A stretch of 64,000 bases of DNA from positions 62,001-126,000 of the forward strand of contig NZ_JAHVJQ010000008.1 in assembly GCF_019801145.1 (NCBI RefSeq). Direction: 5' to 3'. The notes beneath the pieces were generated by a model. The model was not told the DNA's origin. It searched no databases and saw only the letters and a list, made by a program, of their open reading frames with translations. Source of the DNA: Leisingera aquaemixtae. GTDB taxonomy: Bacteria; Pseudomonadota; Alphaproteobacteria; Rhodobacterales; Rhodobacteraceae. Below, piece after piece: positions 1 through 15,248 of the stretch (positions are counted from its first letter, which is position 1; the number at the start of each line of letters is the position of its first letter). A program made the translations under genes and the position numbers.

Positions 1-232
1 CGACGGCAAGCGTTTCCACCTGCACATGCAAATGCTAGCCGGCGACAAAATTGCAGCCGCAGGTGAGTTTATGGAGCTTCACGTTCAGCAGAATCCGGAA
101 CCGCACGCGACGGCGATCCCGTCTGATATCCTGCGCCGCCTGCAAGCTGCAAAGATACCAGCGTCGGAGCGCCATAAATTGAAACACCGCTCGCGCTCGA
201 TTGGGCTGCAAGGCGGGCGGCAGGCGGGATGA
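1..232 (+). CDS. Thioesterase family protein, 3' end only
   Basis: The open frame enters from the left edge (frame of base 2) and stops at the TGA ending at 232. The visible tail of about 76 residues contains a run like FHLHMQML...EFMELHV, which resembles the last beta-strands of hot-dog-fold acyl-CoA thioesterases of the 4HBT superfamily. Closest in style, from memory, are the betainyl-CoA thioesterases linked to carnitine 3-dehydrogenase. The last 25 residues are basic and lie outside the fold. The start, active site and upstream partner are not in the window, so the carnitine link is only a suggestion. Confidence 0.6.
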   Translation, partial: DGKRFHLHMQMLAGDKIAAAGEFMELHVQQNPEPHATAIPSDILRRLQAAKIPASERHKLKHRSRSIGLQGGRQAG

Positions 233-353: not shown

Positions 354-1220
354 TCAGCCGGTCACAAGCTGCGCGCGCAGGAAGGCGACGTTGAACGCAA
401 GACCAGGCAGAAGCCATTGGAACAACCGCACGACGGCGAGAACTTCATTCGGGTCCGCATCCTGTGCCGCAGCGGCTTCCAGAGCATCCGGCGTGAGACC
501 GGTGGCGTTTGGCAGGCCAAGTGCCAGTTCCACCGCCCGTTCGTGAATGTCCTGGACCGCGGGTTCGTATCCGCCGGACCGGATCACGGGCTTGAGATCT
601 TCCCAAGCCGCCGCAATATAACTCGGCCAGCGGGCAAAGGCGCGGTAATCGGTATTTACAAACGGCAACCCAAGCGTCTCGCGCAAGTCGGCGTAAAGCG
701 CCGCGGTGTCCGGGCTGGCATGATGGGCCTCCATCAGGACCGGGTGTTCGCCTGCTGCCGCCAGCGCGGACCGGGGTGCGGCCTCGCCTTGCGCGGTCCA
801 AGCCTGGCCTTCCAGCAGCGTCCGGGCCAGCGACGCCATCAGCAGATAGGGCATGTTGCCGGCAGAGAAGACCTCGTTGCAGGCGATGATCTGCTCCAGT
901 TCCGCCGCGTCATAGCCCGCGTCCTCGAGCCGTGCCTTGATGGGCGGCGGGGAGAACGAGCCTGCCCGCATTTCCGCGAAGTTGCGCAGGTCCTGACAGG
1001 CCGCGACGAAGGCCTCTGTCGCGGTCACCGGCTCCAGCGCTTGCCAGAGCGTTTTGTAGAAGCTTGGATAACGGGCAAAGGCCATCGCCACGACCCCCAT
1101 CCAAGGCACGCCCAGCCCGCGTTTGGTGCGCTCGTAGATTTCCGCCAGTTCGCCGGTTGCGGCGCGTTCGGGCACGGGGCGGATGGGTGGCAGCGGGGAC
1201 GGTTTTAGCCGCTTCAGCAC
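354..1220 (-). CDS. DehI-family (halocarboxylic acid dehalogenase-like) protein
   Basis: This 288-residue all-helical protein opens with the segment PPIRPVPERAATGELAEIYE followed by a helix like LGVPWMGVVAMAFARYPSFY, which is typical of the DehI family (group I 2-haloacid dehalogenases and many uncharacterised relatives). Two similar halves can be seen (ARYPSFYKTLWQAL near residue 49 and ARWPSYIAAAWEDL near 195), matching the pseudo-dimer architecture of the family. The GTG start lies one base after the stop of the HxlR gene, with GAGG upstream, so the two genes form an operon. Family membership is fairly secure. Actual dehalogenase activity is not, because most DehI homologues are untested. 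Confidence 0.75.
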   Translation of the reverse strand: MLKRLKPSPLPPIRPVPERAATGELAEIYERTKRGLGVPWMGVVAMAFARYPSFYKTLWQALEPVTATEAFVAACQDLRNFAEMRAGSFSPPPIKARLEDAGYDAAELEQIIACNEVFSAGNMPYLLMASLARTLLEGQAWTAQGEAAPRSALAAAGEHPVLMEAHHASPDTAALYADLRETLGLPFVNTDYRAFARWPSYIAAAWEDLKPVIRSGGYEPAVQDIHERAVELALGLPNATGLTPDALEAAAAQDADPNEVLAVVRLFQWLLPGLAFNVAFLRAQLVTG

Positions 1221-1221
1221 G

Positions 1222-1596
1222 TCAGGCCTCTGCCGTTATATGCTGCGGCAGTCCTTCACTCCATTTGCGCAACTCGTCCAGGAACCCCAATGCGGTGCGG
1301 CCAAGATCCGTGATCGCGTATTGCACCGACACCGGTGCGGTATCCAGAACCTGGCGGGTCACAAGACCCTGTCCTTCGAGCTGGCGCAGGCGTTCGGTGA
1401 TCATCTTCTTGCTGGCACCGCCGACCATGCGGGCGAGATCGTTGAACCGGACGGGTTCGTCTTTCAGGTGCCACAGGATGGAGCCGGTCCACTTGCCGCC
1501 GATGATCCGCATGCCGCGCTCGATTGCGCAGGGTTCAAAACAGGCGTCGTAGGCGTTGCGGCGGCCTTGGTCGTCTTCTTCCACGCGTGCTCGCAT
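1222..1596 (-). CDS. HxlR-family winged-helix transcriptional regulator
   Basis: The protein has the HxlR signature: a Cys followed by AIERGMRIIGGKWTGSILWHL, then a winged helix ending in LEGQGLVTRQV. Two cysteines (ACFEPC) precede the recognition domain. In relatives such as YodB and HypR, cysteines at this place sense quinones, diamide or aldehydes. The frame is open up to 1683, but GGAGG sits five bases before the ATG at 1596, giving 124 residues, the usual size; a start at 1608 is the alternative. It is cotranscribed with the DehI-family gene and divergent from the quinone reductase operon, so it probably controls that operon. Confidence 0.8.
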   Translation of the reverse strand: MRARVEEDDQGRRNAYDACFEPCAIERGMRIIGGKWTGSILWHLKDEPVRFNDLARMVGGASKKMITERLRQLEGQGLVTRQVLDTAPVSVQYAITDLGRTALGFLDELRKWSEGLPQHITAEA

Positions 1597-1672
1597 CATT
1601 GCCTCCATGGGTTTCCGGAGAGGATTCGGGAGGGCAGGAAAAGTGATCAGGTCTCTTTTCGTTGCTTGAGAA

Positions 1673-1795: not shown

Positions 1796-1823
1796 AAGGT
1801 TACCAAAAGTATACTAGTTGCGA
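1796..1823 (+). promoter_or_regulatory. 28-bp element upstream of the mdaB-like operon, shared with the iorA-like operon
   Basis: The 28 bases contain GGTTACCAAAAGTATACT and end in GTTGCGA. The reverse complement of 15221-15248 matches this element at 25 of 28 positions. The element lies 78 bases before the ATG at 1902. It contains short TAC/GTA half-sites of the kind bound by HxlR regulators. The most economical reading is an operator or activator site for the adjacent HxlR protein. Confidence 0.6.
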
Positions 1824-1901
1824 AATGTTTCGTCGTGTCCAGATTGCGGGCTGTGCGGCGGCTGATCCCGCCATGCCGCAGTCAATCGCAAGGAAGACAC
1901 C

Positions 1902-2513
1902 ATGAGCAATATTCTGATCCTCAACGGCCACCAGCCCTATCCCTTTGCCAAGGGTGAACTGAACGCAGCGCTGATTGACCGTGCCACCGCGTACCTGAAA
2001 GAAGCCGGACATGACGTGCGTGTGACCAAGGTCGCCGAGGGCTATGATGTCGAGCAGGAAATCGCCAGCCACCAATGGGCCGACACCGTCATCATGCAGT
2101 TCCCGGTAAACTGGATGGGTGTACCGTGGTCGTTCAAGAAATACATGGATGAGGTCTATACCGCAGGTATGGATGGCCGCCTGACCAATGGTGATGGCCG
2201 CGTCGCCGAAGCCCCGAAAGAAAACTACGGCATGGGCGGCTCGCTGACCGGCACCACCTACATGCTGTCCGTTACGCTGAACGCTCCGGCTGAGGCATTC
2301 GACAACCCGGCTGAGCCGTTCTTCGAAGGCGCGTCGCTCGACGATCTGCTGCGCCCGATGCACCTGAACGCCAAGTTCTTCGGCATGTCGCCGCTGCCCA
2401 CCTTTGGCGCCTTTGACGTGATGAAGAACGCCGATGTGGACACGGATTTCGCCCGTTTTGACGCGCATCTGGCCCGTGTCTTCGGTGCCAATTCCGTATC
2501 GGAAGTGGCCTGA
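1902..2513 (+). CDS. mdaB: NAD(P)H-dependent quinone reductase, MdaB-like flavoprotein
   Basis: This 203-residue protein has a flavodoxin-2 fold: it begins MSNILILNGHQPYPFAKGEL and contains QFPVNWMGVPWSFKKYMDEV, the FMN/FAD-binding and dimer segment typical of MdaB and NQO-type enzymes. Such enzymes carry out two-electron reduction of quinones with NADPH and so avoid redox cycling. It is the first gene of a plus-strand run of detoxification genes and lies 78 bases after a putative regulatory element. The size is normal for MdaB (about 195-205 residues). The exact substrate is unknown. Confidence 0.85.
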   Translation: MSNILILNGHQPYPFAKGELNAALIDRATAYLKEAGHDVRVTKVAEGYDVEQEIASHQWADTVIMQFPVNWMGVPWSFKKYMDEVYTAGMDGRLTNGDGRVAEAPKENYGMGGSLTGTTYMLSVTLNAPAEAFDNPAEPFFEGASLDDLLRPMHLNAKFFGMSPLPTFGAFDVMKNADVDTDFARFDAHLARVFGANSVSEVA

Positions 2514-2554
2514 TCCACGTTTGTGGAACTCATTCCAAAAAGGAGGCTTATGAG

Positions 2555-2908
2555 GTGAGCAACTCTCCCCTGATCACCGAAGGCCAGCGCGCGCCGCTGG
2601 CCGACGAAGCGTCGCCCGACATGTATGAAGAGCTGGTGAACACCGGAATTACGCGTCTGGTCCGCATGAAGATGCCGCCGGGTGCGACGGATGAGCCGCA
2701 CCGCCACCCTGAGGAGATCGTCTACTTCATCAAGGGCGGCCTGCTGTCGATCAAGCTGGAAGATGGTGGAACCATCGTGAAAGAGGTCGCCGATGGCGAT
2801 TTCATGCACAACGGACCTTGGACGCATCAGGTCAGCAATGTCGGCACCACCACGGTTGAGGCCGTGCTGTTTGAGCGTCTGGACAACGACGTGGAACCGC
2901 AGAACTGA
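2555..2908 (+). CDS. Cupin-domain protein
   Basis: This small (117-residue) single-domain cupin has motif 1 as DEPHRHPEEIVYFIKGG and motif 2 as GDFMHNGPWTHQVSN. Two histidines and a glutamate of motif 1 could bind a metal. The start is GTG at 2555, chosen because AGGAGG lies eight bases upstream; the ATG at 2549 leads straight to a stop. It sits 41 bases after the quinone reductase gene and 15 before an SDR gene, so it is in the operon. The substrate cannot be told from the sequence. Confidence 0.75.
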   Translation: MSNSPLITEGQRAPLADEASPDMYEELVNTGITRLVRMKMPPGATDEPHRHPEEIVYFIKGGLLSIKLEDGGTIVKEVADGDFMHNGPWTHQVSNVGTTTVEAVLFERLDNDVEPQN

Positions 2909-2923
2909 GACGAGGAACGACAG

Positions 2924-3727
2924 ATGACCAAGACTATTCTGATCACTGGTACCGGCTCCGGGCTTGGCAAGGGCGCGGCCTTCGAACTGGCGAAACAGGG
3001 TCATCGCGTGATTGCGACGACCCACGGCGCAAAAGGTGCCGAAACGCTCAAGGCAGAAGCGGCCGCGCTGGGTCTGACGCTGGAAACAGCCAAGCTGGAC
3101 ATCACCAGCGCCGAGGATCGTCAGGCCGCCTTTGACCGCTTTGGCGCCGATGTGGATGTCGTGGTGGCAAATGCCGCCATCGGCGATACCGGCCCGATTG
3201 CCGAGGTTGACGTGGACCGCATCCGGAATGTGTTCGAAACCAACGTGTTCTCGACCGTCGAGTTCGTGCAGCCCTATGCGCAGGCTTTTGCCCGCCGTGG
3301 GCGCGGCAAGGTGGTGTTCGTCTCGTCGATCGCCGGGTTCCTGACCTTCCCGTATCTGGCCCCCTATACCGCGTCCAAACACGCGCTGGAGGCGATCGCA
3401 GAACTGATGCGGGAAGAGCTTGAACCGATGGGGGTACAGGTCGCGACCATCAATCCGGGCGCGTACCGGACCGGGTTTAATGACCGGATGTATGACAAGA
3501 TGGACGAGTGGTACGATCCTTCGAGTAGCATTACGCCGCCGGAAGCGATCCGCAAGGTCCGCGACCTGTTTGCAGGCGACGGCTTGCAGATGGATCCGCA
3601 GCCAATGATCGACAAGATGGCCGAGGTCATCGCGGCGGATCACCACAAATTCCGCACTGTTTTCCCGGAAGAGGCGATCAAGGACGTGCTGGATTACCAG
3701 CAGAAACACTGGACGCTGGAAATCTGA
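2924..3727 (+). CDS. Short-chain dehydrogenase/reductase
   Basis: A classical SDR of 267 residues. The cofactor motif TGTGSGLG is at residues 8-15, NAA near residue 84, a serine in VSSIAG, and the catalytic YTASK at 148-152. The middle follows the usual Rossmann order. Members of this group reduce carbonyls or oxidise alcohols with NAD(P)H; a role in removing reactive carbonyls would fit the surrounding GST and quinone reductase genes, but that is inferred from context. An AGGA motif precedes the ATG. Confidence 0.85.
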   Translation: MTKTILITGTGSGLGKGAAFELAKQGHRVIATTHGAKGAETLKAEAAALGLTLETAKLDITSAEDRQAAFDRFGADVDVVVANAAIGDTGPIAEVDVDRIRNVFETNVFSTVEFVQPYAQAFARRGRGKVVFVSSIAGFLTFPYLAPYTASKHALEAIAELMREELEPMGVQVATINPGAYRTGFNDRMYDKMDEWYDPSSSITPPEAIRKVRDLFAGDGLQMDPQPMIDKMAEVIAADHHKFRTVFPEEAIKDVLDYQQKHWTLEI

Positions 3728-3785
3728 ACCCTTCGGGCCTGCGCGGCAACGAGCGGGCCCGGACACTTGCCCTCAGGAGACAATC

Positions 3786-4502
3786 ATGACCCAACCGGAC
3801 ATTCACCTTTACACCGCTGCCACTATGAACGGCTACAAGCCGGTTATTTTTCTGGAAGAAGCTGGTGTCCCCTATGACCTGACTTTCATCGATTTCTCCA
3901 AGCAGGAGCAGAAAACCCCCGATTTTCTCAAGCTGAACCCGAACGGAAAGATCCCCACGATCTATGACCGGGCCGAAGATCGGGCCATTTTTGAGTCCGG
4001 CGCCATTCTTTGGCATCTGGCCAACAAATACGGCAAGTTCCTGTCAAACGATCCGGTTACCCGGTCGGAAACGCTGCAGTGGCTGTTCTTTCAGGTCGGT
4101 CACGTCGGCCCGATGATGGGGCAAGCGATGTATTTTCAGCGCATTGCTGCCCCGAACGGGCATGAGGAGCCGTTCTCGATCAAGCGTTACGTGGATGAAT
4201 CCCGCCGCTTGATGGAAGTACTGAACACACAGCTGCAAGGCCGCGATTTCATTGCCGGGGAATACTCCATCGCCGACATGATGATCTACCCGTGGGCGCG
4301 GGCTTACCCGTGGGCGCGGGTCGAAGTTGACGACTTGCCGCACCTGAAGGCCTGGTTCGACCGCATCGACGCGCGCCCGGCGGTGCAGAAGGCGCTGATC
4401 ATCCCCAAGGCGCAGCCCCAGTTCTGGGACGAAAACGCGGATGCCGATGCCTTCCTGAAGGAAAACGCGGCGCGGTTTGCCGGCGATGTGAAAAACGCCT
4501 GA
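3786..4502 (+). CDS. Glutathione S-transferase, YfcG/Ure2p-like
   Basis: This 238-residue GST has a thioredoxin-like N-terminal half with LKLNPNGKIPTI (the cis-proline loop) and FESGAILWHLA (glutathione-binding Glu-Ser), then an all-helical domain with VGPMMGQAMYF. These segments are typical of the YfcG/Nu-class group, which often act as disulfide reductases using glutathione. It is clearly paralogous to the gene at 7806-8516. An imperfect internal duplication of 18 bases (4287-4322) encodes YPWARAYPWAR. GGAGA precedes the ATG. Confidence 0.88.
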   Translation: MTQPDIHLYTAATMNGYKPVIFLEEAGVPYDLTFIDFSKQEQKTPDFLKLNPNGKIPTIYDRAEDRAIFESGAILWHLANKYGKFLSNDPVTRSETLQWLFFQVGHVGPMMGQAMYFQRIAAPNGHEEPFSIKRYVDESRRLMEVLNTQLQGRDFIAGEYSIADMMIYPWARAYPWARVEVDDLPHLKAWFDRIDARPAVQKALIIPKAQPQFWDENADADAFLKENAARFAGDVKNA

Positions 4503-4581
4503 TCCAGCCGCAGCCTAGCTGGCGGCCGGTCTCCGGGCCGCCGAGGGCCGGAGGCAAATCAGATGAGAAAGACGCAATGAA

Positions 4582-5268
4582 ATGAGCATTACACTTGTTG
4601 GCTACCCGGTCTCGCCCTTTGTGCGCAAAGTGCGGGTGGTGCTGGAGCAGAAGGGGATCGGTTATACTCTGGACCCCGCCGTTCCCTATACCGAGCGGCA
4701 GAAGGTGCTGGCGGTCAACCCGGCCGGCACCGTGCCAGTGTTGCTGCCAGGTGATGGCCTGGCGCCAGTCACCGAAAGCGCTGATATCGCCGCCTGGGCG
4801 GAACAAACGGTGCCGCTGCCGGTGCTGATCCCGCCGCAGCCGGAGCTGCGCCAGCGGGCGTTGCGGATACAGCAGTTTGCTGACAGCCAGATGGCGCAGG
4901 TCTTTGGCGGCATGATGTTCGGCCAGCGCATCGTTGTGCCCTATTACTTCGGAAAGGCCGGCGGCAAGGAAGACATGGTCGAACATGCGATGACCGTGCT
5001 GGCGCCGCAATTGCTGGATTCGCTGGCGGAGCTCTTGGCCGATGCGGACTATGCCGCGGGCACCTTCAGCGTGGCGGATATCGCTTTGTCGAGCTGGTTG
5101 CGGGGAGCGGAGCTGGCGGGGTTCGCACTGGACGATGCGCGCTGGCCGTCTATCCGGAGCTGGCTGGATCGCTGCTATGCGCAGCCCGGATACGCCCGCG
5201 TGATCGCGGATGAGGAGCAGCTGGAGGTCGTCCGCTGGGCACGCAGCCGTTATGAGGGGGCAGCATGA
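4582..5268 (+). CDS. Glutathione S-transferase family protein
   Basis: A 228-residue GST with N-terminal GYPVSPFVRKVRVVLEQKG, the cis-proline segment VNPAGTVPVLL and Glu-Ser in PVTESADIAAW. It belongs to a different subgroup from the two YfcG-like GSTs beside it. The stop overlaps the ATG of the KefG-like gene by four bases (ATGA), implying translational coupling. KefC-type channels are opened by glutathione adducts, so a GST that makes such adducts upstream of KefG-KefC is functionally sensible. Confidence 0.85.
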   Translation: MSITLVGYPVSPFVRKVRVVLEQKGIGYTLDPAVPYTERQKVLAVNPAGTVPVLLPGDGLAPVTESADIAAWAEQTVPLPVLIPPQPELRQRALRIQQFADSQMAQVFGGMMFGQRIVVPYYFGKAGGKEDMVEHAMTVLAPQLLDSLAELLADADYAAGTFSVADIALSSWLRGAELAGFALDDARWPSIRSWLDRCYAQPGYARVIADEEQLEVVRWARSRYEGAA

Positions 5269-5879
5269 GGACTCTGGTTTACCTGGCGCATCCCCGGCCT
5301 GACCGTTCGGAGATAAACGCGCCGATGTTCGAGGCCGCGCGCGGGATCGAGGGCATAACTTGCGTCGACCTGTACGGCGAATACCCGTCATTTGAGATCG
5401 GCGTCGACCGTGAACAGCAGCGGATCACAGAACATGACGCGATTGTTTTTCTGCATCCTCTGTACTGGTATTCGGCGCCAGCATTGCTGAAGGAATGGCA
5501 GGACCTGGTGCTGGAGCATGGGTTTGCCTATGGCCATGCGGGCCACGCCCTGGACGGCAAGGTGACCTTCAACGCGGTCACTTGCGGTGCTGCGGCCGAA
5601 GCCTACACACCCGAGGGCGCAAACGGTGCGCATCTGCGCAACTTGCTGATGCCGTTTGAGAAAACTGCTGACCTATGCCGGATGCGCTACCTGGCGCCCT
5701 TCGCGCTGTTCGGCGCGGGGCGCGCGGTGGAAGAGGGGCGGGACAAGTCTCACCTCGCCGAGTGGCGGTCACTGCTGAAGGCGCTGCGTGACGACACGCT
5801 GGATATTGCGGCTGCCCGCGCGGCGCTGTCGCTGAATGGATTCACGGCGGCAGGGGCCGCCAAGCTGGAGGCCGTGTGA
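5265..5879 (+). CDS. kefG: KefG/KefF-type ancillary NAD(P)H oxidoreductase
   Basis: A 204-residue flavodoxin-2-fold protein starting LVYLAHPRPDRSEIN, with HPLYWYSAPALLKEWQDLVL, the classic KefF/KefG/NQO segment, and a GHALDGK turn. It is sandwiched between a GST and a KefB/C antiporter with overlapping start and stop codons on both sides. In enterobacteria KefF and KefG bind the antiporter and are needed for full efflux, and they also have quinone reductase activity. The gene symbol rests on this context. Confidence 0.85.
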   Translation: MRTLVYLAHPRPDRSEINAPMFEAARGIEGITCVDLYGEYPSFEIGVDREQQRITEHDAIVFLHPLYWYSAPALLKEWQDLVLEHGFAYGHAGHALDGKVTFNAVTCGAAAEAYTPEGANGAHLRNLLMPFEKTADLCRMRYLAPFALFGAGRAVEEGRDKSHLAEWRSLLKALRDDTLDIAAARAALSLNGFTAAGAAKLEAV

Positions 5880-7795
5880 TGGATCTTCTTGCTGCTGGTT
5901 TTGTCTACCTGGTTGCCGCGGTGATTGCGGTGCCGTTGGCCAAGCGTCTGGGGCTCGGTTCAGTGCTGGGGTACCTGATCGCGGGGGTGGTGATCGGCCC
6001 GGTGCTGGGCGTTGTCGGCGGCGAGACCGTCGACATCCAGCATTTTGCCGAATTCGGCGTGGTGATGATGCTGTTCCTGGTCGGTCTGGAACTGCAGCCC
6101 GCGATGCTATGGCGGATGCGGGCGCAGCTGTTGGGGCTGGGCGGGATGCAGGTGCTGGGCACCGCCGTGCTGATTGCCGCGGCGGCGCTGGTCTTTGGTG
6201 TTGCCTGGCAGGCATCACTGGCGCTGGGGATGATCCTGGCGCTGTCCTCGACAGCGATCGTGCTGCAGACGCTGGGGGAAAAGGGGCTGATGCCGACAGC
6301 GGGCGGCAAAGGCTCTTTCTCGGTGCTGCTGACTCAGGATATTGCGGTGATTCCGATGCTGGCGCTGATGCCGCTGCTGGCGGTGAATGCCGTTGCTGGC
6401 GGCCATGACGTTCACGGCGATTCCGGCCTTGGTGCGCCTGCGGCTGACGCGCACGGGCATGGTCATGGCGCGCCGACGCTGTTCGACACGCTGCCCGACT
6501 GGGCGCAGGCGGTGGCGGTCCTGCTTATTATCGGGGGCATCATCGTGGCGGGGCGGACGGTGATCCGGCCGGTCTTCCGCTTTATCGCCGAGGCGCGGCT
6601 GCGCGAGATTTTCACCGCCGCGGCGCTGATGCTGGTGATCGGCATTGCGCTTTTGATGAACAATGTGGGCCTGTCGCCTGCGCTTGGCACTTTTCTGGCC
6701 GGCGTGGTGTTGTCGGACAGCGAATACCGGCATGAGCTGGAAAGCGATATTGAGCCCTTCAAGGGGCTGCTCTTGGGGCTGTTCTTCATCACGGTCGGCG
6801 CGGGCATCGATTTCCAGCTGCTGCTGTCCAACCCCGTTGGGCTGGTTGGCCTGGCGCTGGGGCTGATGGCGCTGAAAGCGGGGGTGCTGTACGTGCTGGG
6901 CACTGGTTTCGGCCTGCGCGGCGCCGACCGCTGGCTGTTCTCGCTGGGTCTGGCGCAGGCAGGGGAGTTCGCCTTTGTTCTGTTCGGCTTTGCCGCCGGG
7001 GCCGACATCCTGGGTGCCGAGGTGATCAAGCCGATGACGCTGGTGGTGGCGCTGACCATGCTGCTGACGCCGCTGCTGTTCATCCTTTATGAAAAGGTGC
7101 TGGCACCGCGTGCGGTCCGGACAGAGGACCGCGCGGCGGATGAGATCGACGAGGCGGGCAGCATCGTGGTAGCGGGCATTGGCCGGGTCGGCCAGATCAT
7201 CACCCGGATGCTGGTCACTAACGGCCACAAGGTCACGGTGCTGGACCACGATCCTGAAACCATCGAGAACCTGTCGCGGATCGGCTTCCGCGCCTACTAC
7301 GGCGATGCCACCCGCCCGGACCTGCTGCACAGCGCCGGACTGGAAGGTGCCAGGCTGTTCGTCGCCGCGCTGGATGACCGGGAAAAGCAGACCGAACTGG
7401 TGCATCATGTCGCCAAGACCTATCCGCAGGTCACCATCCACGCCCGCGCCCATGACCGGCATCATGTCTACGAGCTGGAGCGGGCGGGCGCCCATCTGGC
7501 CCAGCGGGAGACCTTTGAGGGCGCGCTGGCGATGGGCCGCGATGCGATGACCGCCATCGGCTACCACCCGTTCCGGGCAGAGGCCGCCAGCCGCACCTTC
7601 CGCAGCCATGACCGCGAGGCGCTGGACGGGCTGCGGGAGAGCTGGAATGAAAGCGGGGTGTCGAAAAGCTATATCGATGCCATGCGGGCGCATTCGCAGA
7701 CTCTCTTCGAGCTGATGAAGGCGGACCGCCATGACACTCACGACCGTTCGGAACGCGGCTGGACCCCGCCGCCCAAGGGAGATGCGAGCCTGTGA
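5879..7795 (+). CDS. kefC: Glutathione-gated K+/H+ antiporter, KefB/KefC family (CPA2)
   Basis: The first 390 or so residues are about 12 hydrophobic segments of the Na+/H+ exchanger fold (LASSTAIVLQTLGEKG-like region near 120, LGTFLAGVVLSDSEYRHELESDIEPFK in the middle). They are followed by a TrkA-N Rossmann domain with GIGRVG near residue 432 and the HDPETIENL region. KefC releases K+ and acidifies the cytoplasm when electrophile-glutathione adducts bind, protecting the cell. The ATG at 5879 overlaps the KefG stop by one base; a GTG three bases earlier is possible. A histidine-rich loop (residues about 174-200) is an unusual detail. KefB versus KefC cannot be resolved. Confidence 0.88.
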   Translation: MDLLAAGFVYLVAAVIAVPLAKRLGLGSVLGYLIAGVVIGPVLGVVGGETVDIQHFAEFGVVMMLFLVGLELQPAMLWRMRAQLLGLGGMQVLGTAVLIAAAALVFGVAWQASLALGMILALSSTAIVLQTLGEKGLMPTAGGKGSFSVLLTQDIAVIPMLALMPLLAVNAVAGGHDVHGDSGLGAPAADAHGHGHGAPTLFDTLPDWAQAVAVLLIIGGIIVAGRTVIRPVFRFIAEARLREIFTAAALMLVIGIALLMNNVGLSPALGTFLAGVVLSDSEYRHELESDIEPFKGLLLGLFFITVGAGIDFQLLLSNPVGLVGLALGLMALKAGVLYVLGTGFGLRGADRWLFSLGLAQAGEFAFVLFGFAAGADILGAEVIKPMTLVVALTMLLTPLLFILYEKVLAPRAVRTEDRAADEIDEAGSIVVAGIGRVGQIITRMLVTNGHKVTVLDHDPETIENLSRIGFRAYYGDATRPDLLHSAGLEGARLFVAALDDREKQTELVHHVAKTYPQVTIHARAHDRHHVYELERAGAHLAQRETFEGALAMGRDAMTAIGYHPFRAEAASRTFRSHDREALDGLRESWNESGVSKSYIDAMRAHSQTLFELMKADRHDTHDRSERGWTPPPKGDASL

Positions 7796-7805
7796 GACCG
7801 AGGTT

Positions 7806-8516
7806 ATGAACGAGGGTAAACCGGATATCCTTCTGTACACGACGCCGACGATGAACGGCTGGAAGCCACTGATCTTCCTGCATGAGGCGGATGTGCCTTA
7901 TGAGCTGTCGGCGGTGGATTTTTCCAAGAAGGAGCAGAAGGCGCCGGAGTATCTGAAGCTCAACCCAAATGGCCGCATCCCCACCATCGTAGACCGCGGC
8001 AACGATGGTTTCGCGGTCTTCGAAAGCGGCGCGATCCTGTGGTATCTGGCCGAGAAGTACGGGCGGTTCCTGAGCGATGATCCCAAGGAACGCTCACAGA
8101 CGCACCAGTGGCTGATGTTTCAGATGGGCGGCATTGGGCCGATGATGGGGCAGGCGATGTACTTCCAGCGCATTGCCCGGCCCAACGGCCACGACGACCC
8201 CTATGCAATCAAACGCTATGTGGACGAGTCCCGCCGCCTGCTGGAGGTGCTGGACAGCCGCCTGCAGGGGCGCGCCTGGCTGGTGGGGGAGGAGATGTCG
8301 ATTGCCGATATCGCCACCTACCCCTGGGCGCGGTCCTATTTCTGGGCCGGAGTTGATGTCTCCGGCCTGGACCATCTGAACGCCTGGCTCGCTCGCATTG
8401 ACGTGCGGCCTGCCACCCAGGCGGCGTTGCAGCTGCCGAAACCGCGACCTGCCGTCTTTGGCCAAGGCGACACCGAAGCTGCGGCGGCTGCCAATGCCGC
8501 CAATTACAAGGAGTGA
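7806..8516 (+). CDS. Glutathione S-transferase, YfcG/Ure2p-like (paralogue)
   Basis: A 236-residue GST with LKLNPNGRIPTI, FESGAILWYLAEKYG and IGPMMGQAMYFQRIARPNG. It matches the protein at 3786-4502 along its whole length, so the two came from a duplication inside or before the cluster. The chosen ATG at 7806 gives a normal N-terminus (ILLYTTPTMNGWKP); the frame stays open upstream inside kefC. It follows the kefC stop by 10 bases. Only a weak ribosome site (GAGG, too close) is visible, so translation may be coupled to kefC. Confidence 0.85.
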   Translation: MNEGKPDILLYTTPTMNGWKPLIFLHEADVPYELSAVDFSKKEQKAPEYLKLNPNGRIPTIVDRGNDGFAVFESGAILWYLAEKYGRFLSDDPKERSQTHQWLMFQMGGIGPMMGQAMYFQRIARPNGHDDPYAIKRYVDESRRLLEVLDSRLQGRAWLVGEEMSIADIATYPWARSYFWAGVDVSGLDHLNAWLARIDVRPATQAALQLPKPRPAVFGQGDTEAAAAANAANYKE

Positions 8517-8520
8517 TCCC

Positions 8521-9177
8521 ATGACCGCAGAATCCCAGCCGATCCGCGTCGACATCGTCTCGGACGTTGTATGCCCCTGGTGCGCCATCGGCTATTACCA
8601 GCTGGCCGAGGCTGTGCGCGAGACCGGCATCGGGGTGGATATCCGCTGGCATCCGTTCGAGCTGAACCCGCAGATGGCGCCGGAGGGTGAGAACCTGCGC
8701 GAGCATCTGGCCGCGAAATACGGCACCACGCCGGAGGGTTCGCGCCAGGCGCGGGCGCGACTGACAGAGATGGGCGCGGCGCTGGGGTTCACCTTCAACT
8801 ACGCCGACGACATGCGGATGTATAACACCTTCCACGCCCATCAGCTGATCGGCTGGGCGGAGGAGCAGGGCAAGGCGCATGACGTAAAGCTGGCGCTGTT
8901 TGCGGCCTTCTTTACCCGGCGCGAGGATGTTTCCAGCATTGATGTTCTGGCCTCGGTTGCCGCTGGCGCGGGGCTGGATGGCGATGCGGCCCGCGCCATG
9001 CTGGAAAGCGGCGGTCGCGCCGAACAGGTGCGCGCCAAGGAGCAATTCTGGACCAGCCGCGGCGTCCAGGGCGTGCCCGCGATGATCTTTGAGCGCCAAC
9101 ATCTGGTGAGCGGTGCGCAGGGCGAAGAGAACTATGCCAGTATCCTGCAGCAGTTGAAGGCCGCGCAGGCGGCCTGA
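8521..9177 (+). CDS. DsbA family oxidoreductase, FrnE-like
   Basis: A 218-residue protein of the FrnE/2-hydroxychromene-2-carboxylate isomerase type: DIVSDVVCPWCAIGYYQL with CPWC at residues 18-21, RWHPFELNP, and the C-terminal GVQGVPAMIF with its cis-proline. There is no signal peptide, so it acts in the cytoplasm. FrnE proteins are thiol-disulfide oxidoreductases linked to oxidative stress. It starts four bases after the GST stop and belongs to the same operon. Confidence 0.85.
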   Translation: MTAESQPIRVDIVSDVVCPWCAIGYYQLAEAVRETGIGVDIRWHPFELNPQMAPEGENLREHLAAKYGTTPEGSRQARARLTEMGAALGFTFNYADDMRMYNTFHAHQLIGWAEEQGKAHDVKLALFAAFFTRREDVSSIDVLASVAAGAGLDGDAARAMLESGGRAEQVRAKEQFWTSRGVQGVPAMIFERQHLVSGAQGEENYASILQQLKAAQAA

Positions 9178-9247
9178 ACAGCAGTTAAGGGTAGCCGGCG
9201 CGTGCTAGCCCGACCTGGTGCGGAATTTCTGATGAGGGAGAAACCAC

Positions 9248-9970
9248 ATGAGACTTCAAGACATCAAGGCGCTGACATTTGATACCGGCGGCACCGTGCT
9301 GGACTGGCACAGCGGGTTCCGCGATGCATTCGCCGCGGCGGGACAGCGCCACGGAATCAGCCGTGACTGGGCGGCGCTGGCCAATGACCTGCGGCGGCGG
9401 TCGATGCAGGCGATGCTGAATCTCGGTGAGGATGGCCCGCCGACATACAACTTCGACGAAGCGCACCGGTTCTGTCTGGAGGCGCTGCTGAACGATGAAA
9501 GGCTGGAGACCTTTGACGCGCAAGATCGGCAAGCGATTGCTTGGGATGCACCACATGGGTTCGATGCCTGGCCCGACGTGCAGGAAGGGCTGGCGGCGCT
9601 TCGCATGAACCGCATCGTGGCGTCATTCTCGCTGCTGTCCTACCGGTTGATCATCGACAGCTCGCGCCGGAACGGGCTGGTCTGGGATGCGGTGCTGTCA
9701 TGCGAGGGGCTGGGCCTCTACAAGCTGCTGCCAGAAGCCTACCGGCGGGCGGCAAGGCGGCTACAGCTGGCGCCTGAGGAATGCCTGATGGTGGCTTGCC
9801 ACCCCTATGACCTGGACGCTGCGCGGCAGGTGGGGTTCCGCACCGCGCTGGTGCGGCGGCCTCGGGAATGGGGAGACCGGATGCCGGAGACGCCTGCACG
9901 GGGCGAAACCGGTGCTTATGATCTAGAAGTGGACAGTTTCAACGAACTGGCGGCGGCGTTGCAGGGCTAG
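9248..9970 (+). CDS. HAD-superfamily hydrolase, type II haloacid dehalogenase-like
   Basis: A 240-residue HAD protein. Motif I is LTFDTGGTVLDW, with the nucleophile D12 but no second acidic residue two positions later, as in L-2-haloacid dehalogenases rather than phosphatases. A cap-domain region with RRRSMQ follows, then motif III Lys in LGLYKLLPEAYR and motif IV near VACHPYDLDAARQVGFRTALVRRP. The usual LSNG of motif II reads FSLLSYR here, so the substrate may not be a haloacid. Its 3' end overlaps the converging GlxA-type gene by 32 bases. Confidence 0.8.
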   Translation: MRLQDIKALTFDTGGTVLDWHSGFRDAFAAAGQRHGISRDWAALANDLRRRSMQAMLNLGEDGPPTYNFDEAHRFCLEALLNDERLETFDAQDRQAIAWDAPHGFDAWPDVQEGLAALRMNRIVASFSLLSYRLIIDSSRRNGLVWDAVLSCEGLGLYKLLPEAYRRAARRLQLAPEECLMVACHPYDLDAARQVGFRTALVRRPREWGDRMPETPARGETGAYDLEVDSFNELAAALQG

Positions 9971-10856
9971 GCGCGTTCCAATGCGTGCGCCGGAAGCGGC
10001 CGGGGGTCATTCCGGCCTGACGTGAGAAAACCCGGTGAAAGGCTGGCAGGTCGGAATAGCCCACCTCTGCCGCGATCTCTGCCACGCTGCGTCCAGTTGT
10101 GGTCAGCAGGTCGCGGGCGCGTTCGATACGCAAGTTCTGCTGGTAGGCAGTAAGGCTGTGACCGGTGGTGCGGGTGAACCGCCGCTGCAGACTGCGCAGC
10201 GACAGGCCAACTGCGGCAGCAAGATCGGCGGCACTCAGCGGCTCAGCCAACTGAGCCTCGATCCGTTGCTGCGCGGCTAGAACAGGCCGGTCTCCGTGGT
10301 CCATCGGCGGCAGGAAGCGGCGGTAGCGGCGCTGGTCGCGGCGGCCGGGGTCGATGATGAAATGCCGGGCGGTGTCCAGCATTGCGGCGCGGCCCGCTAG
10401 CCGCTCAATCACCACCAGCGCCAGGTCGATCCAGGCCATAAGCCCACCAGCGGTCACCAAATCCGTGTGCTCGATCACCAGCCGGGCTGTATCGAGCTGA
10501 AGCGCGGGGTATTCCAGCCGTATGCGCGTCTCTAGCCCCCAATGGGTGGTTACTGGACGGCCCCGATCGATCCCTGCGGCGGCAATCCAGTGCAGCCCGG
10601 TGCAGGCAGAGCAGATGAGCGCACCCTGGGCGGATTGCTCCGCTAGCCAGCCGGTGACCCAGGGCGCATCCGAGGGATGCACCTCACACGCGGAAGGCGG
10701 CAGGATCACGGCGCGGGTATGGGCGGGTGCCAGGTCCGGCTGTGCGACCGTTAGCGGGGCCAGTCCGGCGTGGCTCAGAATGTCATTCAGCCCCAGCACA
10801 GCAGAGGGCATGGAACCGGGATAGTTCAGGATCACTGTGGGCTGTTGAAGTGGCAT
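9939..10856 (-). CDS. GlxA-type transcriptional regulator (DJ-1/PfpI + AraC HTH)
   Basis: The N-terminal part is a DJ-1/PfpI-like domain: VILNYPGSMPSAVLGLNDIL, ALICSACTGLHWIAAAG with the nucleophile-elbow Cys, and RPVTTHWGLETRIRLEYP. The C-terminal 100 residues are an AraC/XylS double HTH (LSAADLAAAVGLSLRSLQRRF, VAEIAAEVGYSDLPAFHRVFSR, GMTPGRFRR). I chose the ATG at 10856; TTG at 10895 and GTG at 10886 are alternatives. It is divergent from the MBL hydrolase gene, its likely target. The ligand is unknown. Confidence 0.85.
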   Translation of the reverse strand: MPLQQPTVILNYPGSMPSAVLGLNDILSHAGLAPLTVAQPDLAPAHTRAVILPPSACEVHPSDAPWVTGWLAEQSAQGALICSACTGLHWIAAAGIDRGRPVTTHWGLETRIRLEYPALQLDTARLVIEHTDLVTAGGLMAWIDLALVVIERLAGRAAMLDTARHFIIDPGRRDQRRYRRFLPPMDHGDRPVLAAQQRIEAQLAEPLSAADLAAAVGLSLRSLQRRFTRTTGHSLTAYQQNLRIERARDLLTTTGRSVAEIAAEVGYSDLPAFHRVFSRQAGMTPGRFRRTHWNAPSPATPPPVR

Positions 10857-10955
10857 GATTGGCGTAACTGGCAAATAGTTTGTCACGGGCGACAATACCC
10901 GCCACCTCAGCTTTGCGCCATATCCGGATCATCACACGCGAAAAGGAGAGCGCCC

Positions 10956-11759
10956 ATGCCCAATGCCCCTCATACACTGTCCGTCGGCCAGATCAGCCTT
11001 ACGGTGTTTGACGACGGTCATTTTGATCTGCCGCTGGAGTATTTTTCCGGCCTGTCCGGCGATCTGACCCAACGACTGAGCGCACCGCTGACCATCGGTG
11101 CCAACCTGTGGCTGATTGATACGGGCAGCCGACGGGTCCTGGTAGATACCGGGTCCGGCCAGGCGCTCGAGCAGAGGTTTCCCGCGACAGGCCAAGCTCT
11201 GGAGGCTGTCTCGGACGCGGAGGTCTCCGACATCGTGCTGACCCATATGCACGCTGACCACCTTGGCGGGTTGCTGGGCGGCGAATTTTCTGGGGTCCGG
11301 GTGCATGTGTCGAAGCCGGAATGGGAGTTCTGGACGCAGGCCGGGCTGGCCGATGCAGTGCCGGAGGAACAGCGCCCGATGATCGAAATGGTGCAGGCAG
11401 TGGCCGCATCTTTCGCGGACCGTGTGGTGACCCATGAGGGGGCCGCCGACCTTGGCGAGGGGCTGACGCTGGTGCCGCTGCCGGGCCACACCCCAGGCCA
11501 CACAGGGCTGCGCCTTAGGTCCGGCGGCGAGGAACTGCTGATTGTCGGTGACGCGGTGATCTCGGGACAGGTTCATTTTGCCGAGCCTGACGTAGGCTAT
11601 GCGCTGGACAGCGACGCTGATGCCGCCGCCGCCACCCGCCGCGCGCTGCTGGCCGATGCGGCGCAGTCGGGCACACCGATCGCCGCCACCCACCTGCCGT
11701 TCCCGGGTCTGGGCCGGGTCGAGGCGGAGGGCGATGCCTGGCGGTTCGTGCCACTCTGA
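10956..11759 (+). CDS. MBL-fold metallo-hydrolase
   Basis: A 267-residue metallo-beta-lactamase-fold protein with the zinc motif HMHADH at residues 97-102, further ligands in LPGHTPGHTG and VGDAVI, and a C-terminal histidine in ATHLPFPG. There is no convincing signal peptide. The ATG at 10956 follows AGGAGA. The family includes quorum-quenching lactonases and glyoxalase-like enzymes, but nothing fixes the substrate. It is divergently transcribed from a GlxA-type regulator across about 100 bases. Confidence 0.8.
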   Translation: MPNAPHTLSVGQISLTVFDDGHFDLPLEYFSGLSGDLTQRLSAPLTIGANLWLIDTGSRRVLVDTGSGQALEQRFPATGQALEAVSDAEVSDIVLTHMHADHLGGLLGGEFSGVRVHVSKPEWEFWTQAGLADAVPEEQRPMIEMVQAVAASFADRVVTHEGAADLGEGLTLVPLPGHTPGHTGLRLRSGGEELLIVGDAVISGQVHFAEPDVGYALDSDADAAAATRRALLADAAQSGTPIAATHLPFPGLGRVEAEGDAWRFVPL

Positions 11760-11799
11760 GCGGGCCCTTCCGGGTTTGACAATGGTCTGAACCGAAAAT

Positions 11800-11834
11800 C
11801 CGGCGGCTCCGAGGGGCCGCCGGTCTGTTTCTTC
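11800..11834. terminator. Intrinsic terminator between converging genes
   Basis: CCGGCGGC (11800-11807) pairs perfectly with GCCGCCGG (11816-11823) around an 8-base loop, followed by TCTGTTTCTTC. It lies between the converging MBL and cytochrome genes and could serve the plus-strand transcript; an A-rich stretch before it may help the minus strand. Confidence 0.65.
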
Positions 11835-11849
11835 GCGCAAGCCGTTGAC

Positions 11850-12473
11850 TCAACCGGGGCAGGCGGCACCGGTTTCGATCCAGTTCTCCGCCAGTTCGGC
11901 AAAGGCCTCCCAGGTGCCGGGCGCCGGGGTGCGGCCTTCGCCCGGGGTCCAGGCCCAGCCGACCAGGGAGTCATGGCCCATGTGGTGCGCCACCTCGGTC
12001 ATGGTGCGGCCTCCATTGCGCTCTGGATCCTTCAACTGGGCGCAGATCTCCGGCACGGTCAAGCCGACCCAGCCCATGCTGGCGGGTGCCAGCTGCCAGT
12101 GCCCATTGCCGGGCACCGAGCCGCTTTCCCCCAGAAACGGGCGGTTTTCTTCGCCGTGGCAGGTGGTGCAGCGCATCGCGACAACGCCGAAGTTGTCCTC
12201 GGTACGCGGCACGGGCGGCGAGTGCGGTTTGCGCTCGTCGCCCTGCAGCGGTCCGCTGTTGACCGGGTGGCAGTTCATGCAGCGCGGGTGAGTGATGACC
12301 TTGGCCATTTCGCCGAAGATCGCGGCAGAGCGCGCCTCTTCGGGGGCAATGCCTTCGAAAGCCTCGGCAGTTTTCAGGCCATTCACCTCCTGGGCGGCGG
12401 CTGTGCCGTCGGCGGTGAATTGCGCGAGCAGGGCCGCAACGGTCAGGGCCGCAGCGCGTTTGAAGAAGTTCAT
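11850..12473 (-). CDS. Periplasmic dihaem c-type cytochrome
   Basis: A 207-residue protein with a cleavable signal (KRAAALTVAALLAQF...AAAQ) and two haem-binding motifs, CMNCH near residue 65 and CTTCH near 102. It follows the molybdenum subunit gene by 14 bases and is the last gene of the iorAB-like operon, so it is the likely periplasmic electron acceptor for that enzyme. Length and layout match the cytochromes often found with isoquinoline 1-oxidoreductase-type dehydrogenases. Confidence 0.85.
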   Translation of the reverse strand: MNFFKRAAALTVAALLAQFTADGTAAAQEVNGLKTAEAFEGIAPEEARSAAIFGEMAKVITHPRCMNCHPVNSGPLQGDERKPHSPPVPRTEDNFGVVAMRCTTCHGEENRPFLGESGSVPGNGHWQLAPASMGWVGLTVPEICAQLKDPERNGGRTMTEVAHHMGHDSLVGWAWTPGEGRTPAPGTWEAFAELAENWIETGAACPG

Positions 12474-12487
12474 TGTCCGGTCTCCTT

Positions 12488-14632
12488 TTACGCGCGCACC
12501 AGCGGCAGGCGGCGCACTGGCTGGCCTTTTAGGACACGCCAGGCGTTGCTGACGGCCGGCGCAATCGGCGGGGTGCCCGCTTCTCCGATGCCGCCGGGTT
12601 TTTCATTGCTGACGGCAAGATCGATCTCGACCTCGGGCATCTCGTGGATCCGCAGCAGGCGGTAACTGTCGAAGTTCTCCTGCGCGACCTGGCCGTCTTC
12701 GGCAAAGGTGATCTCGTTGAACAGCGCGGCGCTGAGCCCATAGCCGAGCCCGCCTTCGATCTGCGCCTTAACCACATCGGGGTTGATGGCGATGCCGACG
12801 TCTGCGGCCACCCAGACCTTGCTCACGCGGGGTTCACCGGCCACCTCCGAGACCTCGGCGATATAGGCGAAATGGGCGTCATAGCTGGGATGCAGCGCCA
12901 CACCGTAGGCCTTGCCGTCAGAACCGTTCACGCCCTGCCAGTTGGCCATTTCCGCCACGCGCTCCAGCACCTTGCGGTCGCGCGGGGACTTGTCGCCCAG
13001 CAGCTCCAGACGGCCCGCGACCGGGTCTTTGCCCTTGGCCTGCAGCACCTCGTCCAGGAACACCTCGTTGGCGAATGCGGTGTGCGAGTGGCCGACTGAG
13101 CGCCACCACAGGTGCGGCACCTTGCTGTCGGTGCGCACCCAGCGGGCCTCAAAAGCGCCAAAGTCGTAGGGTTTGTGGATTGAGCCCTCAACCGAGAAGG
13201 GGTCGACGCCGTTCTGGATCACCACTTCGAAGGCGGAGCCGCCCATGATGCTTTCGGTGGCAAAGGTGTTCTGCCAGCCGATGATGCGGCCGCTCTCATC
13301 CAGCGCAGCGCGCTGGCGGTGGACGGCCTGCGGGCGGTAATAGGCGCCCTGGATGTCGTCCTTGCGGCTCCAGACCAGCTTGAAGGTGCCCTGGCCGCCG
13401 GCCTTGGCCACTTGGGCCAGCTCCTGGGCGAACTGCGAGTCATACTGGGCGCGGCGGCCAAAGCTGCCGCCGGCCATCAGGGTGTTGATCGCCACCTGCT
13501 CGGGCGCGATGCCGAGGATATTGGCGGTCACCTGCTGGTCGACGGTCTGCATCTGGCTGCCCATCCAGATCTCAGCGGCGTCGCCGCGATTCTCGATCAC
13601 CCCGTCCATCACCTCCAGCGGGGCATGGGCCAGGTAGGGCAGGCGGTATTCGGCCTCGATCACCTCAGCGGCACCGGCAAAGGCCGCGTCCAGATCGCCA
13701 TAGGTTTCGGCAACCACGCCTTCACCCGTCGCAGCGGCGGCGGCGACCTCTTCCATCTGTTCCTCGGCAGAGCGGGTTTCCGCTTCGCTCAGTTCCCAGT
13801 CGATTTCCAGCGCATCGCGGCCCTTGAAAGCGCTGTACGTGTTCTTGGCATAGACTGCGACGCCGGTGGGGATCGTCTCGACCTTCTCGACGCCATCGAT
13901 GGCCAGCGCGGCGGCGGAATTGACCGATTTTACCTTGCCGCCAATCCAGGGAGAGTGGGCGACGGCAACGGTCAGCATCCCCTCCCGGTAGACGTCGAGC
14001 GTGAACTGTGCTGCGCCGGTGGTCTTGTCCGCAGAATCGAGGCGCGGGACGTCCTTGCCGATCAGCACGAAATCTGCCGGGTCCTTGAGCTTGGGCTCTT
14101 CGGGCGGGGTGCTGTCATGAGCGGCGGCAACGAGCTCGCCGAATTGCGCCGAATTGCCACTGGCCGCGTGGCTGACGACGCCCTTGGCGACGGTGATCTC
14201 ATCCTCGGGCAAACCCCATTCGCGGGCGGCGGCCTGCACCAGCATGGAGCGGGCCGCTGCGCCGGCCTGGCGCATCTGGGTAAAGGCATTGCGCACCGCG
14301 GTGGAGGCGCCGGTGCCCTGGATGCCAAAGGCGAAGTTCTGATAGGTGGCGGTGTCCGCAGGCGCGTGTTCGGCGCGCATCTGCGACCAGTCGGCGTCCA
14401 GCTCTTCCGCGACGAGGGTGGCGAAGCCGGTAAAGGGCCCTTGGCCGAATTCGATGTGCTTGACGATTACCGTGACTGTGTTGTCCTCGGCGATGCGGAC
14501 GAAGGCGTTGAGGCTGATCGGGCCGGAGGCTGCCTTCGCCGCCATCTTGCCGCCAACAGGAAGATGCGCGCCGATGATAAGGGCTGCGCTGCCGGCCAGG
14601 AAGCCGCGCCGGGTCGGGGAGAACTTGGTCAT
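12488..14632 (-). CDS. Xanthine dehydrogenase-family molybdenum-binding subunit, IorB-like
   Basis: A 714-residue protein starting with a Tat signal, RRGFLAGSAALIIGAHLPVG, so the complex is exported folded. GGSFGRRAQYDSQFAQELA and KLVWSRKDDIQGAYYRP are hallmark segments of the isoquinoline 1-oxidoreductase beta-subunit group, and GGIGEAGTPPIAPAVSNA near the end carries the catalytic glutamate region. The enzyme probably hydroxylates an N-heterocycle or oxidises an aldehyde, passing electrons through the small 2Fe-2S subunit to the cytochrome c encoded next. The substrate is unknown; an aldehyde would fit the shared control element with the detoxification block. Confidence 0.88.
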   Translation of the reverse strand: MTKFSPTRRGFLAGSAALIIGAHLPVGGKMAAKAASGPISLNAFVRIAEDNTVTVIVKHIEFGQGPFTGFATLVAEELDADWSQMRAEHAPADTATYQNFAFGIQGTGASTAVRNAFTQMRQAGAAARSMLVQAAAREWGLPEDEITVAKGVVSHAASGNSAQFGELVAAAHDSTPPEEPKLKDPADFVLIGKDVPRLDSADKTTGAAQFTLDVYREGMLTVAVAHSPWIGGKVKSVNSAAALAIDGVEKVETIPTGVAVYAKNTYSAFKGRDALEIDWELSEAETRSAEEQMEEVAAAAATGEGVVAETYGDLDAAFAGAAEVIEAEYRLPYLAHAPLEVMDGVIENRGDAAEIWMGSQMQTVDQQVTANILGIAPEQVAINTLMAGGSFGRRAQYDSQFAQELAQVAKAGGQGTFKLVWSRKDDIQGAYYRPQAVHRQRAALDESGRIIGWQNTFATESIMGGSAFEVVIQNGVDPFSVEGSIHKPYDFGAFEARWVRTDSKVPHLWWRSVGHSHTAFANEVFLDEVLQAKGKDPVAGRLELLGDKSPRDRKVLERVAEMANWQGVNGSDGKAYGVALHPSYDAHFAYIAEVSEVAGEPRVSKVWVAADVGIAINPDVVKAQIEGGLGYGLSAALFNEITFAEDGQVAQENFDSYRLLRIHEMPEVEIDLAVSNEKPGGIGEAGTPPIAPAVSNAWRVLKGQPVRRLPLVRA

Positions 14633-14635
14633 GGA

Positions 14636-15094
14636 TCAGGCCTCCAGCATCTTGGCTGCGTTGTGGATCGCCTTGCGGATGCGCACGTAGGTGGCGCAGC
14701 GGCAGGCGTTGCCGGCCATCGCGTAGTCGATATCTTCATCCGTCGGGTTGGGGATTTCGGTCAGCAGGGCGGCGGCGGCGATGATCTGGCCGGACTGGCA
14801 GTACCCGCACTGGGGCACGTCGATGTCGACCCAGGCCTTGCGCACCGCGTCGGCCTCGGGGCCTTCGAGCGCCTCGATGGTGACAACGTCGGAGCCATCG
14901 AGCGCCTCCACCGGGGTCACGCAGGAGCGCACCAGCATGCCGTCGACCATGACTGTGCAGGCGCCGCATTGGGCAATACCGCAACCGAATTTGGTGCCGG
15001 TCAGGCGCAGATCGTCGCGCAGCGCCCAAAGCAGCGGCGTGTCGCCGGGGACGTCGAGTGTGACGTCCTTTCCGTTGATGGTGAGGTCAGTCAT
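14636..15094 (-). CDS. 2Fe-2S subunit of the molybdenum hydroxylase, IorA-like
   Basis: A 152-residue protein with a plant-ferredoxin-type cluster ([17 protein letters not shown]) and a second cluster (CGYCQSGQI and CRCATYVRI), the standard double 2Fe-2S small subunit of this family. The frame is open to 15256, but AGGAGG lies just before the ATG at 15094, which also gives the expected N-terminus [11 protein letters not shown]. It is first in a three-gene operon with the Mo subunit and cytochrome c, and the shared 28-bp element lies 126 bases upstream. Confidence 0.9.
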
Positions 15095-15220
15095 TTTTGG
15101 GGTGTCCTCCTTTGGCTGGTCCTGGAGATTGGCTTCAACGCCTTTTGGCGCTGCCCTGCCGAGAGTGGCAGGGCCGAGGTTGGGGCGGTTCGCGCTTACC
15201 GTTTCACCGCAGGTTTCGAA

Positions 15221-15248
15221 TCGCAACCGGTATACTTTTAGTAACCTT
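15221..15248 (-). promoter_or_regulatory. 28-bp element upstream of the iorA-like operon
   Basis: Read on the minus strand this contains GGTTACTAAAAGTATACC and ends GTTGCGA. It matches 1796-1823 at 25 of 28 positions, in the same orientation relative to the downstream gene. TACTAAAAGTA inside it is an 11-base inverted repeat (TACT/AGTA). A common regulator for both operons is the natural explanation, and the HxlR protein at 1222-1596 is the prime candidate. Confidence 0.6.

Follow-up and report, generated by a model that had tools for sequence, protein, structure and literature searches.

The window, by which we mean the whole stretch of 64,000 nucleotides from Leisingera aquaemixtae analysed here, carries a regulatory gene of the HxlR/DUF24 family, a series of genes for detoxification and redox proteins and a molybdoenzyme operon (Table 1). 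The two operons that share an element were originally described as distant; both lie within a single cluster of ~15 kb. Read from the ATG at 1599, just upstream of which lies GGAGGC, hxlR encodes a product of 125 amino acids with an HxlR winged-helix domain (PF01638, 82.1 bits against a cut-off of 20.8), and this protein stays below the NCBIfam cut-offs for RrpA and RrpB (52.1 and 51.8 bits against 185 and 175). The genome encodes 11 HxlR homologues, and only this one adjoins an exact copy of the site discussed below. The DehI-like gene also adjoins hxlR in the Leisingera relatives, on contig C20 of genome G045, in Ruegeria arenilitoris and in Tropicibacter.

Table 1. Genes and candidate operators of the cluster, in window coordinates.
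Feature	Position	Strand	Remarks
DehI-like (halocarboxylic acid dehydrogenase)	354-1220	-	Directly after hxlR
hxlR, HxlR/DUF24 regulator	1222-1599	-	Pfam HxlR, 2.6e-23; longer reading 1222-1683
Operator 1 (candidate), AGGTTACCAAAAGTATACTAGTTGCGAAATGTTTCGT, 37 bp	1797-1833	+	Upstream of flavodoxin-fold reductase operon; PWM 47.5
Flavodoxin-fold oxidoreductase	1902-2513	+	First gene after operator 1
Cupin	2555-2908	+	
Short-chain dehydrogenase	2924-3727	+	
Glutathione S-transferase-like	3786-4502	+	Nearest NCBIfam GSH-dependent disulfide bond oxidoreductase, below cut-off
Glutathione S-transferase-like	4582-5268	+	
KefF-like oxidoreductase	5265-5879	+	179.5 bits; NCBIfam cut-off 210
KefC-like K+ efflux antiporter	5876-7795	+	680.4 bits; NCBIfam cut-off 752
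Glutathione S-transferase-like	7731-8516	+	Start uncertain, perhaps 7806
DsbA-like oxidoreductase	8398-9177	+	Start uncertain
HAD-type hydrolase	9248-9970	+	
AraC-type regulator	9939-10895		Inside cluster
Probable c-type cytochrome	11850-12473	-	Two CxxCH motifs, from sequence
Molybdopterin large subunit (IorB-like)	12488-14632	-	8gy3_C, 3.1e-68
[2Fe-2S] small subunit of molybdoenzyme (IorA-like)	14636-15094	-	8gy3_B, 8.5e-60
Operator 2 (candidate), AGGTTACTAAAAGTATACCGGTTGCGATTCGAAACCT, 37 bp	15211-15247	-	Upstream of molybdoenzyme operon; PWM 47.7

Bases 1796-1823 of the forward strand and the reverse complement of 15221-15248 are identical at 25 of 28 positions, which confirms the match first reported. 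Arithmetic with equal base frequencies gives an expectation of ~0.006 such pairs per 64-kb window, so the pair of 28-mers is by itself suggestive and it is the cross-genome data that decide. Only two places in the window match the 17-bp core, GGTTACYAAAAGTATAC, with three or fewer mismatches, and both match it exactly; 100 shuffles of the window gave a mean of 0.03 matches, and none reached two. In the 4.88-Mb Leisingera genome there are these two exact matches and one with three mismatches (reversed-pattern control, 4+4). The three-mismatch relative (G000:C6:4926-4942; L003 1501-1517) overlaps an in-frame ATG that is the likely start of an HxlR paralogue and has no conserved 37-bp form (PWM -17.6), and it is therefore probably coding sequence and chance. 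The first 28-mer is separated by 78 bp from the start codon (ATG) of the flavodoxin-fold gene and the second by 126 bp from the ATG at which the IorA-like gene probably starts; a GTG at 15256 in the list of open reading frames is not a likely start for the latter.

The match is real, although conservation across genomes spans 37 bp, with the core inside it, and not the 28 bp of the original prediction; the right-hand part is weak at operator 1. The best unrelated place in the window has a PWM score of -12.9. The sequence suggests an element of imperfect two-fold symmetry in which a pair of 17-bp boxes, GGTTAC-N5-GTATAC and GGTTG-ATTTTN-GTAACC, are spaced 18 bp apart. Among 99 non-redundant sites, columns left free in the search pattern are conserved as well (A/T at position 0, T18 in 97%, G23 in 98%, C34 in 83%), and the reverse complement of positions 0-11 recurs, in approximate form, at positions 25-36. 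The reverse half-site TTTTNGTAACCT placed at +25 matches at a mean of 6.54 of its 11 positions, compared with a baseline of 2.94 (sd 0.53, next highest 4.02) over offsets outside -12..24, a baseline in which the +25 value is itself included; seven or more positions match in 58.6% of the sites versus 0.6% of flank windows. The second box has a median score of 10 across the sites; it reaches 6.1 at operator 2 and 0.9 at operator 1, the latter no better than random (99th percentile for random, 2.0), and before the molybdoenzyme genes of Ruegeria, Tropicibacter and Mameliella it is poor. A single box may therefore suffice at operator 1 and at those molybdoenzyme sites. Between the window genome (G000) and G016, operator 2 is identical at 37/37 positions, compared with 29/60 upstream and, downstream, 18/20 and then 41/60. 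At operator 1 one operator base differs among Leisingera and the flanks are also well conserved, so that no footprint can be read there.

A scan for consensus sigma-70 promoters found none at either site. A TTG at positions 21-23 is conserved, weak -10-like columns lie at about 43-48 and T48 is present in 83% of the 99 sites. These may be promoter elements within or just after the operator, in which case HxlR would be a repressor, but given the result of the scan such an overlap is a guess. A weak terminator-like hairpin (15275-15263) lies between an enoyl-CoA hydratase gene and operator 2; the scan found terminator-like hairpins no more often (11) than in shuffles (13.4). We note also that the stretch between hxlR and operator 1 holds a perfect 8-bp inverted repeat, ACAAATTT/AAATTTGT, with 11 bp between its arms (1673-1699), which is kept in three other Leisingera except for one base in G001 and may belong to the promoter region of hxlR or be a further operator.

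The original prediction asked whether the element is conserved upstream of both operons in relatives, and with no more than one mismatch it is found there in four Leisingera, R. arenilitoris, Tropicibacter sp. R16_0 and Mameliella sediminis. In the four Leisingera, the window's included, both sites precede the same genes and lie 12.7-13.4 kb apart, and the two-operon cluster is kept together in the Leisingera relatives, R. arenilitoris and M. sediminis. In Tropicibacter sp. R16_0 (L265/L266) the regulator cluster and the molybdoenzyme operon are near opposite ends of one contig of 96985 bases, as if a circular replicon had been cut open between the two parts. A third site is present in two Leisingera, G019 (L065 9557, minus strand) and G016 (L066 8399, minus strand); that of L065, a tentative site, precedes an HlyD/ABC-2 permease/DUF2165 operon by ~330 bp, and a decayed gene may lie in between.

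The element and the regulator occur together. Among 148 genomes (own included), six have the core with at most one mismatch, and the same six, and no others, have an HxlR orthologue at E<1e-60; the best HxlR match in any other of these genomes is 1.9e-22. Core matches with two mismatches, the sole matches in 15 of the 21 genomes with a hit among the 148, were left out as sites because the reversed-pattern control matched in more genomes than 15. Of 295 genomes of the family, 12 carry the site (up to two mismatches) and 13 the HxlR (E up to 1e-30). The 12 all belong to the 13, which leaves 282 with neither; matches to the reversed pattern occur in 4/295. The thirteenth HxlR genome, G202, has a diverged site at the equivalent place (GGTTACCAAAAGGTACC; GGTTACCAAAAGGTACCTAATTG), between hxlR and an apparent GST gene, as joint change of operator and regulator would lead one to expect. 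Forty genomes chosen for holding the site contain 58 sites, one to four per genome, and the reversed pattern matched nowhere in them. Chance, which had been called very unlikely, is rejected by the whole-genome, 148-genome, 295-genome and 40-genome scans, and the low number of sites per genome in the 40 leads us to reject a dispersed repeat or general promoter.

Scanning of a GTDB collection with the exact pattern GGTTACNAAAAGTATACNRGTT returned at least 118 stretches. Most of the 118 matches listed come from Alpha- and Gammaproteobacteria; cyanobacteria, Myxococcota and a few isolated records under other labels are represented too. The candidate regulon reaches far beyond the Roseobacter group. 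A divergent adjacent HxlR is found at 101 of the 118 matches listed, with both cysteines (see below) in 101/101. The other 17 comprise seven at the edge of a stretch (L078, L079, L090, L110, L113, L148, L177), three second sites (L088, L092, L126) and seven others; in four of these last an HxlR is in the stretch and not in the required position (L098, L156, L163, L184), and in the stretches of L143, L152 and L186 no HxlR was found. L152 is an exact operator pattern in a metagenome-assembled genome labelled as a Nitrososphaeraceae archaeon and is chance or a misbinned contig. First downstream genes could be classed at 110 of the 118 matches listed, by homology to the window proteins or to Pfam-named representatives: flavodoxin-fold reductase (54), aldehyde dehydrogenase (23), GST (20), AhpC/TSA-type redoxin (6), IorA (2) and one each of KefF, LtrA, nitroreductase, GFA and CMD. 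With the exception of the one LtrA, all are families that handle electrophile or redox stress; among the eight left unclassed, L168 resembles Old Yellow Enzyme by eye. In a tree, a single clade (support 0.83) takes in the 102 site-linked HxlRs and that of G202, and 24 other HxlRs fall outside it.

In an AF2 model of the 125-residue HxlR (mean pLDDT 90, pTM 0.75) the N-terminus forms a hairpin; Cys20 follows in a loop, and Cys24 immediately precedes helix 1 (residues 25-33). Cys24 is the N-terminal cysteine of the family and is present in 102/102 site-linked and 22/25 other HxlRs; the Cys20/Cys24 pair is invariant in the clade and is also found in 6/25 other HxlRs, that of G202 included. We propose that sensing would be by reaction of one or both of these cysteines. 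HxlR of Bacillus subtilis is reported to sense formaldehyde through a methylene bridge between Cys11 and Lys13, with DNA binding gained on formaldehyde (PMC7835342). The protein of the window is a winged-helix homologue of that regulator (PDB 7bzd, 7bze and 7bzg; E of 7e-16 and 4e-16) and shares the family cysteine that is Cys11 there. However, lysine at +2 from this cysteine occurs in 0/17 aligned clade sequences, the window protein having C-A-I-E, so that the reported bridge (PMC7835342) cannot form in the same way and the sensor chemistry probably differs.

Both molybdoenzyme subunits have 8gy3 as best PDB match, over nearly their full length; this structure is that of a membrane aldehyde dehydrogenase of Gluconobacter, of the AldFGH type. 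Of the IorAB-like molybdoenzyme with cytochrome c originally proposed, the molybdoenzyme and a probable cytochrome gene stand, and the IorAB label is better replaced by aldehyde dehydrogenase-like, this being the activity of the closest solved relative. Small [2Fe-2S] and large Mo subunits match those of 8gy3 and the probable cytochrome c gene follows them, although this cytochrome has only two CxxCH motifs, no Pfam match and no convincing PDB match. TRRGFL near the N-terminus of the large subunit is a Tat-type export motif. Another molybdoenzyme of the same superfamily is PaoABC of Escherichia coli, a periplasmic aldehyde oxidoreductase with a role in aldehyde detoxification; the match to PaoC is weak (5.3e-25; 87.9 bits against a cut-off of 1180) and, unlike PaoABC, the window operon is without an FAD subunit gene and has the cytochrome instead.

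The site accompanies close homologues of the molybdoenzyme and is missing where the homologue is distant. The site precedes an IorA-like gene in Leisingera, R. arenilitoris, Tropicibacter sp. R16_0 and, with one mismatch, M. sediminis, and the last three have it before a flavodoxin-fold gene too (3/3). Within Leisingera the large subunit is present at 97-100% identity in 4/21 genomes, the same four that have both sites, and the other 17 hold homologues at 45% identity or less. Of the 40 site-holding genomes, 25 have an IorA homologue (E up to 1e-50): where identity is 80% or more the site lies upstream in 5/5 (two Leisingera, R. arenilitoris, Tropicibacter and Mameliella), and where it is 72% or less (20 of the 25) no site is near the gene. 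Of 30 IorA loci scored with the PWM, only the window's own has a site (47.7). The other 29, whose identity reaches 74% at most, have none (best score -19.4); one of these 29, L201, is in a genome (G024) that has HxlR and the site elsewhere.

We consider it highly probable that the HxlR-family regulator encoded beside the shared element uses this element as its operator and that the regulon includes the molybdoenzyme. The candidate electrophile regulon of HxlR and a molybdenum hydroxylase that had been put forward is supported in so far as the site tracks the HxlR clade almost perfectly and its targets are mostly detoxification families. We infer that HxlR binds the element and represses rather than activates, with an electrophile as inducer and cysteines as its point of attack. 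One or two HxlR dimers would bind the operator, cover the promoter of the downstream operon and keep the operon off. Electrophiles such as quinones and reactive aldehydes would be sensed through the cysteine pair before helix 1, and on release of the DNA by HxlR a cytosolic detoxification set (flavodoxin-fold reductase, GSTs, KefFC, short-chain dehydrogenase and DsbA-like protein) would be turned on together with the exported molybdenum aldehyde dehydrogenase-like enzyme, which would pass electrons to cytochrome c. Whether HxlR also controls its own gene is less clear in Leisingera, where ~200 bp separate the operator from the start of hxlR, compared with ~20-30 bp in three closely inspected loci.

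Another possibility is that the site is indeed the operator of HxlR but that the protein is an activator which needs an electrophile to bind. The lack of good -35 and -10 elements at the sites would fit an activator-dependent promoter, and DNA binding of the B. subtilis protein is reportedly gained on formaldehyde (PMC7835342); the crosslinking lysine is nevertheless absent from all 17 clade sequences aligned, and the conserved TTG and T48 could themselves be promoter elements. We regard activation as unlikely, though less so than the readings that leave HxlR out altogether. Among these, the element could be a promoter, or the operator of another regulator such as the AraC-type protein, shared by happenstance. 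The AraC-type gene lies within the cluster and stays there in three Leisingera relatives, but the stretches from Ruegeria, Tropicibacter and Mameliella contain a sole AraC-type match, which is 28% identical, in Ruegeria, and 8 kb from the site; moreover the site adjoins the HxlR clade at most of the matches listed and is present one to four times per genome in the 40 genomes scanned. We regard this explanation as very improbable. Least probable of all is that the two near-identical 28-mers, within 13 kb of each other, are a recent duplication or dispersed repeat with no regulatory role: the genome has no further exact copies, other genera keep the site in front of the same genes, identity with G016 ends at the upstream edge of operator 2, and co-occurrence of site and HxlR across genera contradicts it.

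The preferred reading, of HxlR as a repressor of detoxification genes, places the system beside YodB/CatR, HypR and QsrR, the quinone- and electrophile-sensing HxlR/DUF24 repressors of Firmicutes. It belongs to the same Pfam family, has sequence matches to the YodB and QsrR structures and shares the conserved N-terminal cysteine; reductases and other detoxification families lie beside the regulator and, judged by genomic context and family names, form a detoxification regulon of the kind that YodB/QsrR-type repressors control. It differs in falling into a clade apart, with a recognition region (GGASKKM) and a 37-bp candidate operator of its own, in occurring mostly in Alpha- and Gammaproteobacteria and also in cyanobacteria and Myxococcota, and in having a molybdenum aldehyde dehydrogenase-like target. 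Clade and operator are a new and widespread addition to the HxlR electrophile sensors, and the kind of system is itself known. A search of the titles and beginnings of abstracts listed, a weak one with subscription journals largely outside its coverage, found no description of the operator or clade; HxlR is absent from the text of PMC5343134 and from that of PMC3223726, which covers the CalR and SO1578 regulons.

Perhaps, and this we offer tentatively as somewhat more doubtful than not, an undescribed HxlR clade, patchy and probably spread by gene transfer in marine Proteobacteria, cyanobacteria and Myxococcota with a near-invariant two-box operator, acts as a general electrophile and aldehyde switch to which the Roseobacter group has recruited an exported molybdenum aldehyde dehydrogenase, with Cys-x3-Cys as the sensor; the presence of the cysteine pair in some HxlRs outside the clade lowers the odds of this. 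If true, thiol damage in the cytosol would turn on aldehyde removal outside the cytoplasm in bacteria of the Roseobacter group, and the sensor, a Cys-x3-Cys motif following an N-terminal hairpin, would be chemically unlike the Cys-Lys bridge of B. subtilis HxlR. The analysis predicts an exact pair of operator and regulator at ~100 loci of little-studied bacteria (101 of the 118 matches listed), and suggests a role in defence against reactive aldehydes or quinones for many reductases and GSTs and for a molybdenum enzyme. The regulator is also a candidate thiol switch, open to direct tests or to use as an electrophile biosensor.
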